The notes beneath the pieces were generated by a model. It was not told the origin of the DNA. It searched no databases and saw only the letters and a program-made list of their open reading frames with translations. Shown here piece by piece: positions 14,960 through 17,300 of a DNA stretch of 64,000 nucleotides. The stretch covers positions 1-64,000 of the forward strand of contig JARKNX010000190.1 in assembly GCA_029976025.1 (NCBI GenBank), given 5' to 3'. The translations under genes were made by a program, and so were the position numbers. Source of the DNA: Aggregatilineales bacterium (GTDB taxonomy: Bacteria > Chloroflexota > Anaerolineae > Aggregatilineales > Ch27). The number at the start of each line of letters is the position of its first letter. Position 1 is the first letter of the stretch.

Positions 14960-15481
14960 TTAGCGATCATGTAGGGGGTGTCCAGAATGGATGAGAGATG
15001 CGTGATCCAAGCCTTTTTGTTGCTCGTTCCACGTCGCAATGACTATCGATCGAGGTTTTTCACCTTTTGTCCACCTGTATTCTAAAACATCATATCGGCT
15101 ATAGGTCTTGAGAAGTGCGCCTACATCTCTACTGACGCCTTGCGGAGAAAGAATGCAAGAGTAAAGCGGTAGTGCTACCCGGCTGTAACCCAACAGTTGC
15201 GAAATATCGCGTAGTCTCAGTGGCGTATTCTTGCACTCGACAAAGGCGAATTCAACCATATTCTCGGAGAATATGAATCCCGTGATATCAACCAGAATAT
15301 CATAAGTCAACCATTCTGGTTTATTGCTTGGGACAAGTCCAATATCCTGTAGTGTCATTTTGAGGGGGCGGCGACTTGTATCACGCACGACAATCTTTTT
15401 GCGCTTAAACCGTTCCCGCAGAAACACCTCAAGCCACGCCACTACTTCTGGATATAGATCGCTTTCGGTGGCATACGGCAT
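14960..15481 (-). CDS. Small PD-(D/E)XK endonuclease, candidate restriction cleavage subunit
   Basis: 173 residues. The core of a PD-(D/E)XK nuclease is readable: an N-terminal helix with Glu (ESDLYPEVVAWL), YDILVDITGF with candidate metal-binding Asp61/Asp65, FVECK (Glu82, Lys84) as the E-X-K half, and a following helix RDISQLLGYSRV whose Gln/Leu/Tyr pattern often completes this active site. The protein is barely larger than the fold, so it has little room for its own DNA-recognition domain. Its ATG lies two bases after the stop of the preceding gene, implying coupled translation in the operon 17300 to 14960. I infer it is the cutting subunit of a restriction-modification-like system. No family name is claimed. 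Confidence 0.7.
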   Translation of the reverse strand: MPYATESDLYPEVVAWLEVFLRERFKRKKIVVRDTSRRPLKMTLQDIGLVPSNKPEWLTYDILVDITGFIFSENMVEFAFVECKNTPLRLRDISQLLGYSRVALPLYSCILSPQGVSRDVGALLKTYSRYDVLEYRWTKGEKPRSIVIATWNEQQKGLDHASLIHSGHPLHDR

Positions 15482-15483
15482 AG

Positions 15484-16416
15484 CTAGGTTTCTTCAATGT
15501 CTTCATTAACAGCAGAAAATAATGGACCTGGCTCAGGTTCGATAACGCAGCCCATTGCCTTACAAATCTGCCAATACGCATCAAAATGTGTGCGGACAGG
15601 TTCAGGTAGGCGTTCAGAGTTTTCGTCCGGGTCTATGGGTTTCTTTCTCCTTAACCGTCTACGCCCCGGGCAGGGCTTGTAGTCAGCATTATTGTCTGCT
15701 TCCTGCTCTATAAGATGGTTTAAAACCTGCTGTTTATGCTCAAAAGAAAAACCAACCCGCTCGAATTGAGAAACGAAAATATTAATTTGATGCTCTCGCA
15801 AGTCACGTCCAAGGTTCGGATGTCCCCATGTAATATTTTGCACTGGAATATTCAGATGAATCTGTAATAATCGACAAAGTTGCACAGGAAGTTGCCAGTT
15901 GTCGTTGAGAACATCAAGTCGTACCCGGTTACGTCCATCAATGTACCGATTAGCACGACGAATATTTCCGGCAACGTCAGCATAGCCACGTATAAATTCC
16001 ATACGGATGTCAGTAGTAATCTCTGGGTGAAAAAGTATCTCTGGAACATTCATTACCCGGAAATTGGTTTTGTTTTCGAGATGAAGAGAGATATTGCGCC
16101 AACTCATCGTTCGCCGTGTCATAATCAAAACCATGTGTATATTGTTGTCTAGCCGATTGATCTTAATGTCGCAGTCCAAAAGCTCAAGTACGCGCTCCCG
16201 GATACGCCCTAGACCAAGCTCAATGCTTTGTGGAATATCAATCTGACGATGCCCACCTACTTCATCAATTTCGATATTGAGATTTTGATATGGGAATTCA
16301 ATAACAATCTCGCGCACACCTTGGTGTTCTATCAGTATACCGCGTGCCACAATCATGCCTAAGAGATAGGCAACATCCGGGTCTAAATAGTCATTCGCAA
16401 GAATAACTCCCGTCAT
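15484..16416 (-). CDS. LAGLIDADG-like DNA-binding protein lacking catalytic acids
   Basis: 310 residues, reading as two LAGLIDADG repeats. Motif 1 is AYLLGMIVARGIL (16-28) and motif 2 is FIRGYADVAGNI (141-152). The second repeat continues as family members do: a strand with RNRVRLDVL, helix PVQLCRLLQIHLNIPV, then REHQINIFVSQFERVGF. The penultimate acidic residue of each motif, which binds the catalytic metal, is replaced (Arg25, Ala149), so cleavage by this protein is unlikely. A basic stretch (GRRRLRRKKP, 251-260) leads to a C-terminal helical tail. It overlaps the methyltransferase by four bases (ATGA) and precedes the nuclease by two. I infer a sequence-recognition subunit. The fold call rests on motifs only. 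Confidence 0.6.
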   Translation of the reverse strand: MTGVILANDYLDPDVAYLLGMIVARGILIEHQGVREIVIEFPYQNLNIEIDEVGGHRQIDIPQSIELGLGRIRERVLELLDCDIKINRLDNNIHMVLIMTRRTMSWRNISLHLENKTNFRVMNVPEILFHPEITTDIRMEFIRGYADVAGNIRRANRYIDGRNRVRLDVLNDNWQLPVQLCRLLQIHLNIPVQNITWGHPNLGRDLREHQINIFVSQFERVGFSFEHKQQVLNHLIEQEADNNADYKPCPGRRRLRRKKPIDPDENSERLPEPVRTHFDAYWQICKAMGCVIEPEPGPLFSAVNEDIEET

Positions 16417-17300
16417 TTCCCCTCATACTTTCGTAACTTCGATGGTTTCTGGAAAATCAAAATATACTCATGGCACTTGTTAATACGAAATACGGATGGA
16501 TAGCCAAGGGGGCGCAAATTGTTATATTCATGCCGCCTGTCCCAGATAATGAGGTCATCGTAGATGAACCCGACATGCTCCATCATTTGAGCAACATCTG
16601 AATGAAACGGATAGAAAGAGTTTTTCTTTCGTAAATCCATGACCACAACAAAGCAATATTTTCCAGGGCGCATTACCTCATAGATCGGGCGGAATACCTC
16701 CGAAAGTTGGTCTATAAATCCGTGATAATCGCTAATTTTACCTAAGTCCTCAGTCGTATTACCGTAGTCGCGAATTTCTTTTCCGTCTGCTGTGCGCTTC
16801 TGTGTGAGAATATCCCAGTATGGCGGTGAAGTGATAACTATATCCACACTCTCAGGCTCAAGATACTTTCGGATGTGTCGGGCGTCGTCTTGATAAATTT
16901 TGCTTTCAGTATCAACTCCAGTCTGCCACAAATCATGCTGTCCAAGTCGCTGATTGGCCAGCGCAATATATTCGGAATTAATCTCAAAACCAAGACCAAC
17001 ACGCCCCATCCTTGACGCTGCAATAACAGTTGAACCGCTTCCGCAAAACGGATCAAGAACAATACGCTCATCACTTCGTGTAAAGCTCTCTATAATGCGA
17101 GTGACGAGTTGTGCGGGGAAAATGGCCGGATGGCCTAAATCCGCTTCCTGTTTGGTCTTGCGAATATCCGACCAAATGCTAATAGAATTACGCGTCCACG
17201 ATGCTCCGTCCAAATCGTTCGCACGTTTCCGGCTTTTTGCAGTTTCTTCTAGTGTCTCGCTTGGTTCTACTTCATTCCCAAGTAACGGTAACTGTTGCAA
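16413..17300 (-). CDS. Site-specific DNA methyltransferase (amino-methylating, N4-C or N6-A)
   Basis: 295 residues from a TTG at 17300, immediately preceded by an in-frame TAA with GGAG upstream. Motif X is HPAIFP (57-62), motif I (SAM binding) is DPFCGSGST (83-91), and motif IV (catalytic) is TSPPYW (157-162). SPPY is more typical of N4-cytosine than N6-adenine enzymes, but both occur. The order X-I-IV is permuted relative to the common beta-class order. The region after motif IV (about 163-285) should hold the target-recognition part. It leads the three-gene minus-strand operon and would protect host DNA from the cleavage proteins encoded behind it. Confidence 0.88.
   Translation of the reverse strand: MQQLPLLGNEVEPSETLEETAKSRKRANDLDGASWTRNSISIWSDIRKTKQEADLGHPAIFPAQLVTRIIESFTRSDERIVLDPFCGSGSTVIAASRMGRVGLGFEINSEYIALANQRLGQHDLWQTGVDTESKIYQDDARHIRKYLEPESVDIVITSPPYWDILTQKRTADGKEIRDYGNTTEDLGKISDYHGFIDQLSEVFRPIYEVMRPGKYCFVVVMDLRKKNSFYPFHSDVAQMMEHVGFIYDDLIIWDRRHEYNNLRPLGYPSVFRINKCHEYILIFQKPSKLRKYEGK

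Follow-up and report, generated by a model that had tools for sequence, protein, structure and literature searches.

The three-gene cassette M-A-B described here is real and widespread, and it represents an apparently undescribed variant of Type II-like restriction-modification. Its genes encode an amino-DNA methyltransferase (M), a two-repeat LAGLIDADG-fold protein without catalytic acids (A), and a PD-(D/E)XK nuclease (B). We consider it likely that they form an operon in which the endonuclease is split into a noncatalytic LAGLIDADG recognition subunit, A, and a cutting subunit, B. The observations that bear on this reading are the gene order, the folds, the catalytic residues lost in A and kept in B, the tight linkage of A and B, and the constant presence of methyltransferase neighbors.

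The cassette and its methyltransferases

The cassette was found in a window of 64,000 nucleotides (the whole stretch of DNA that was analyzed) from an Aggregatilineales MAG whose assembly comprises 3.99 Mb in 225 contigs. The open reading frames place its three genes at positions 14960-17300 on the minus strand, on which all features given below also lie. M (16413-17300, 295 aa) begins with a TTG start codon that has GGAG approximately 9 nt upstream, A (15484-16416) encodes 310 aa, and B (14960-15481) encodes 173 aa. The stop codon of M and the start codon of A overlap by 4 nt in the sequence ATGA (16413-16416), and a 2-nt spacer (15482-15483) separates A from B. The core cassette of the window consists of these three genes only. 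An earlier note, made from the sequence alone, had described three minus-strand genes with a 4-base ATGA overlap and a 2-base gap in an AT-rich island; the coordinates were identical on re-reading, and the base composition bears out the island. The GC content of the three genes is 0.436-0.467 versus about 0.69-0.70 in flanking genes, GC3 is 0.40-0.46 versus 0.83-0.87, and the MAG has approximately 65% GC compared with 43-47% for the cassette. With values this far below those of its flanks, the cassette is foreign in composition. In an empty-site comparison with three genomes of the same family, the GH20-like neighbor gene was kept, and neither the other flank nor M-A-B was found near it, so that this comparison gave no borders for the element.

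The first reading of M as an amino-DNA methyltransferase agrees with the profile searches, which gave matches to Pfam N6_N4_Mtase (E 2.2e-35, in two permuted pieces) and PADLOC MTase_II (8e-47). In the translation, the AdoMet-binding motif I (DPFCGSGS, residues 83-90, 17031-17054) precedes motif IV (TSPPY, residues 157-161, 16818-16832). Motif IV of the SPPY type is characteristic of enzymes that make m4C, which is thus a possible product of M.

In 91/91 loci scored (METHYLTRANSFERASES), a methyltransferase gene is found 5' of A at a distance of no more than 4 kb, the counts being approximate because a few loci were retrieved twice. The partner methyltransferases belong to four unrelated families that occur in swapped combinations, and most relatives carry two enzymes of different families. 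The combination of an EcoRI_methylase (PF13651) with a C5 enzyme, separate or fused into a protein of ~700 aa, accounts for 66 of the 91 loci, followed by Eco57I/TaqI-like plus N4/N6 (15 loci), C5 plus TaqI-like (six loci), and C5 only (two loci, both on short contigs). An N4/N6 enzyme alone is found in the window and in its nearest relative, L002, which makes the single-methyltransferase form an exception among the loci. None of the tested partner families occurs elsewhere in the window, and a TaqI-like second partner was not found in the MAG. Mapped onto a tree of A, the methyltransferase kits require at least seven changes versus a minimum of four, which indicates that the A-B core has re-associated with different methyltransferase chemistries; the two Chloroflexota members sit on long branches in this tree, and their placement was not used.

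The presence of two different methyltransferases in one system usually points to asymmetric recognition (PMC4081073). Given the two families in most relatives, the site of the present system is probably asymmetric, and such a site could be read by a monomeric two-repeat LAGLIDADG protein. Against the proposed reading, the single methyltransferase of the window and of L002 would account for the protection of both strands only if their site were symmetric.

Predicted folds and conserved residues of A and B

The structure of A was predicted as a single chain with AlphaFold, using 56 homologues (pLDDT 84, pTM 0.86). The model shows a helix-strand-strand-helix-strand-strand-helix pattern twice, that is, the two alpha-beta-beta-alpha-beta-beta-alpha repeats with LAGLIDADG helices by which the superfamily is recognized. 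Foldseek matched it to I-DmoI, bI3 maturase, I-AniI, E-DreI, and WhiA, each with probability 1.00, and VIA-align superimposed it on PI-PfuI with Z 15.3 (187 residues, rmsd 2.8) and on WhiA with Z 13.5 (185 residues, rmsd 3.4). Profile searches detected no NTPase family in A or B and, for A, neither a WhiA nor a convincing HTH Pfam match, the model being partly of low confidence at residues 250-310. Neither protein had a significant family-level match in Pfam, NCBIfam, PADLOC, or PHROGs or among PDB sequences; weak matches to YhcG_C, to Hom_end, and, in the C-terminal part of B, to PADLOC PDC-S03 (E 0.04) were taken as hints only.

Homing endonucleases of this fold have an acid at position 8 of each LAGLIDADG motif. 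In the A protein of the window, this position is occupied by R25 in motif 1 (LLGMIVARG, residues 18-26, 16339-16365) and by A149 in motif 2 (IRGYADVAG, residues 142-150, 15967-15993). Across the homologues, position 8 is Asn in 54/56 and Arg in 2/56 for motif 1, and Thr in 54/56 and Ala in 2/56 for motif 2, with Asp or Glu in 0/56 at both, so that the acids are absent from all 56 proteins.

B was modeled in the same way with 58 homologues (pLDDT 90, pTM 0.86). The model was most similar to restriction enzymes of the PD-(D/E)XK type: Foldseek returned EcoT38I, PaqCI, and MspJI with prob 0.93-0.99, and VIA gave Z values of 8.2 for BsaWI, 8.1 for PaqCI, 7.7 for EcoT38I, and, for the small subunit of R.BspD6I, 7.1. 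Because Z values of this size are modest, the assignment of B rests equally on its motif. Six residues, E6, D65, E82, K84, Q95, and Y99, are invariant in 58/58 homologues; they include the catalytic D65 (15287-15289) and E82-x-K84 (15230-15238) as well as the Gln and Tyr of a Q95xxxY99 motif (15185-15199). The D...(D/E)xK signature of the PD-(D/E)XK superfamily is thus present in B on the core fold, for which the best Z value, 8.2, is modest. The earlier note had described the second protein as having two LAGLIDADG-like repeats without catalytic acids and the third as a 173-residue nuclease with D...ExK; both fold models and the conservation among the homologues agree with it. Throughout the family, the LAGLIDADG protein would thus appear to be noncatalytic and the nuclease intact.

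In LAGLIDADG proteins, the beta-strands of the repeats face the DNA. DNA binding by A is a prediction, of which fold similarity alone is no proof. Conservation in the model is concentrated on one side of the presumed DNA-facing surface. The four beta-strands of repeat 2 (sheet region at residues 150-215, 15772-15969) contain 11 invariant residues, eight of them polar (R153, N156, R164, H199, N201, E208, H209, and Q210), and the strands of repeat 1 contain two, both nonpolar (G26 and P42). The mean majority frequency is 0.83 for repeat 2 versus 0.62 for repeat 1 (Mann-Whitney p = 0.00013, which is indicative only, as neighboring columns are not independent). The frozen repeat-2 sheet and the variable repeat-1 sheet suggest that one half of the recognition site is shared throughout the family and that the other half is variable.

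Alternatively, the frozen face of repeat 2 may also contact B or form a new catalytic site. In the latter case, A would not be dead; it would nick one strand through D147, H199, N201, E208, and H209, and B would cut the other, as in the Type IIT enzyme BspD6I. The invariance of these five residues in 56 homologues and the resemblance (Z 7.1) of B to the small subunit with which R.BspD6I cuts the second strand fit such a scheme. On the other hand, both canonical acids are replaced in all members (by Asn/Thr or Arg/Ala), base contacts explain polar invariants on a DNA-facing sheet equally well, and no LAGLIDADG enzyme is known to us to cleave DNA when the canonical acids are missing. We therefore regard a new active site in A as unlikely and favor A as a noncatalytic recognition subunit.

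Linkage and distribution of A and B

The first relatives of A were found in L. plantarum plasmids and gut phages, and further ones were then found in IMG/VR. In the system of L. plantarum plasmid p9 (NZ_CP060181), the two methyltransferases are fused. A scan of 84,980 species with the A3 profile revealed at least 167 relatives of A, and 80 of these loci were retrieved. B lies immediately 3' of A in 79/80 of them, mostly with an overlap of 1-47 nt, and a methyltransferase gene lies 5' of A in all 80. The exception, L029, lacks B. In L026, all genes have broken frames, and in a few other loci, B is cut by the contig end or frame-broken. Such an arrangement in ~80 loci from many taxa is not due to chance. 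Searches that started from B, covering ~1,090 genomes, yielded two independent, complete new matches (L099 and L100), both with A directly before B, and no intact B without A. One possible solitary B gene (G1014) turned out to be a frame-broken, decayed remnant, and another B match (G284) was a contig-edge fragment. Hence, the expectations that A and B occur together and that they stand beside methyltransferases both hold, except that the methyltransferases are of four families, usually two per locus, and not of one type.

Evolutionary distances correlate best for A and B (0.79 versus 0.60-0.75 for other gene pairs), which may hint at contact between the two proteins. All of the association evidence comes from one linked cassette, and A could assist B in another way. 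Alternatively, B alone could be a complete small restriction enzyme, with A controlling the transcription of the operon in the manner of WhiA or of a C protein built on a LAGLIDADG fold. WhiA, a catalytically dead LAGLIDADG DNA-binding regulator, does match A at Z 13.5, and B equals some stand-alone restriction enzymes in size; PvuII is an example of a PD-(D/E)XK enzyme of similarly small size that recognizes DNA by itself. Yet no intact B occurs without A next to it, A directly precedes B with overlapping frames, and the two co-vary most closely among the gene pairs. Moreover, C proteins are small HTH proteins, and an HTH family was not convincingly detected in A. The invariant polar residues on the presumed DNA-facing sheet of A look as if they read a fixed site, which a promoter regulator could also do. 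Taken together, a controller role for A seems improbable compared with a role in recognition.

The cassette is rare and patchily distributed across phyla, with a prevalence of roughly 1% of the genomes in each group or lower. Two gut phages of Ca. Heliusvirales (L006, PV036447; L007, PV036410) carry complete methyltransferase-A-B cassettes, and the A protein on an IMG/VR contig (L012) is identical to that of Peptoniphilus asaccharolyticus (L030); these cases indicate that the system is spread by (pro)phages. In the phylum of the window, the cassette has a single close relative, L107 (G214:C72:1-8553), which is located on an 8.5-kb contig with genes read as ParM-like and replication-like and may be plasmid-borne. 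Identical A proteins also occur in a Desulfobulbaceae MAG (L048) and a Clostridiales MAG (L050), reflecting recent transfer or a mis-binned contig, and MAG-based phylum counts should therefore be read with care.

Directly 3' of B, L010 (5768-8525) has OLD-nuclease-like and UvrD-like genes, which we read as a Gabija-like pair, and L012 (6403-8991) has a gene for an 862-aa PHP/SMC-like ATPase; both are neighbors of the defense-island type. In many variants with a TaqI-like methyltransferase, one or two small proteins of 112-165 aa without a Pfam family are encoded beside A-B (L087:2854-3309, L087:3321-3668, L069, L072, L088, L091, and L010:5199-5648). Apparently the same domain is fused to NOV_C (PF13020) in proteins of ~357 aa at other loci (L074:4923-5999). 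The small proteins, which are absent from the window, are possibly a third subunit or an accessory.

The mobility of the cassette (phages, plasmids, many phyla), together with the fact that LAGLIDADG proteins are mostly homing enzymes, could also be taken to mean that A-B is a selfish or repair module, active in homing-like mobility or mismatch repair, with the methyltransferase marking self. We consider this highly unlikely, as A lacks the catalytic acids, the genes are free-standing outside introns and inteins, and the constant co-encoding of methyltransferases, drawn from four families, is a hallmark of restriction-modification. All three alternatives account less well than a split restriction enzyme for the obligate pairing of A and B and for the ever-present, interchangeable methyltransferases. 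Carriage by phages and plasmids, defense-type neighbors, and the patchy spread across phyla lend further support to the split enzyme.

Proposed mechanism and comparison with known systems

In the mechanism that we propose, A, without both catalytic acids, would bind the recognition sequence through its beta-strand saddle and hold B, a minimal nuclease that itself offers little surface for reading DNA and that would hydrolyze the DNA. The methyltransferase or methyltransferases encoded 5' would methylate this recognition sequence in host DNA and thereby keep A-B from cutting it. In most relatives, two methyltransferases (e.g., m6A and m5C) would each guard one strand of an asymmetric site, which would suit the pseudo-symmetric, two-repeat architecture of A. 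We thus infer an A-B complex in which A recognizes the target and that cleaves unmethylated DNA, thereby restricting phages and plasmids.

A more far-reaching view, which we offer tentatively and with more doubt than conviction, is that the cassettes represent an undescribed class of restriction endonucleases across many phyla, with a retired homing-endonuclease scaffold as the specificity subunit. Repeat 2 would read the half-site common to the family and repeat 1 the variable one, new specificities would arise by changes in one repeat, and methyltransferases of any chemistry would be exchanged around the A-B core.

The nuclease folds of known restriction enzymes are PD-(D/E)XK, HNH, GIY-YIG, and a small number of others. 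The claim that no restriction-modification system built in this way has been described stands for the open-access literature, in which we found neither a LAGLIDADG-based restriction system nor a LAGLIDADG protein serving as the recognition module of a restriction enzyme; the A and B genes may be listed in REBASE without analysis. The word LAGLIDADG is absent from a 2014 review of Type II enzymes (PMC4081073) and from a 2025 review. If the proposed reading is true, M-A-B links two major realms of site-specific DNA cleavage, homing and restriction, and the A-B pair is a compact system (~290 + 165 aa) with separable targeting and cutting. It would also make testable how a scaffold for long, degenerate sites reads short, exact sites that methyltransferases protect.

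Two features of Type II systems in the broad sense are seen in the cassette: a methyltransferase gene is linked to an endonuclease gene (91/91 loci, with B identified by motif and fold), and there is no sign of an NTP-dependent translocase (neither A nor B matches an NTPase family, and the core of the window is only M-A-B). A third, a recognition site shared by endonuclease and methyltransferase at which methylation blocks cleavage, is predicted. LlaJI-type operons likewise combine two methyltransferase genes with two restriction genes (PMC11779793). The difference lies in A and B, which have no NTPase family. The restriction genes of LlaJI-type systems encode a McrB/McrC-like NTPase and nuclease.

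Among LAGLIDADG proteins, the homing endonucleases I-DmoI, PI-PfuI, and I-AniI share the two-repeat fold of A over ~185 residues, but the homologues of A all lack the catalytic acids, and A is free-standing in an operon with methyltransferases. WhiA (DUF199) resembles A (Z 13.5) in having a noncatalytic LAGLIDADG domain for DNA or protein binding; it is, however, an HTH-domain transcription factor and has neither a nuclease nor a methyltransferase linked to it.

A natural precedent is found in Type IIT enzymes (BspD6I/BstNBI, BsrDI, and BtsI), in which a large subunit reads the site and a small PD-(D/E)XK subunit only cuts; their sites are asymmetric, and two methyltransferases, sometimes fused, are usual (PMC4081073). 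This division into a large recognizer and a small, purely catalytic subunit, with two methyltransferases, supports the view that A-B is a split restriction enzyme, and B is structurally like the small subunit of R.BspD6I. The large Type IIT subunit (604 aa in BstNBI), however, has its own nuclease site, whereas A has a LAGLIDADG fold without known catalytic residues. Instead of the two catalytic sites of Type IIT enzymes, one per strand, a recognized nuclease site is present only in B, the acids of A being absent in 56/56 homologues. The second methyltransferase of Type IIT systems has its counterpart in most relatives but not in the window or L002.

The design itself has been built by engineers: in I-SceI*-PvuII chimeras, as summarized in PMC3857828 (Fonfara et al. 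2012), an inactivated LAGLIDADG protein targets a PD-(D/E)XK nuclease. If our reading is correct, nature has evolved this same design, an inactive meganuclease joined to a restriction nuclease. The chimera, going by that summary, is a man-made single chain, whereas M-A-B is natural and encodes A and B as separate genes alongside methyltransferases.
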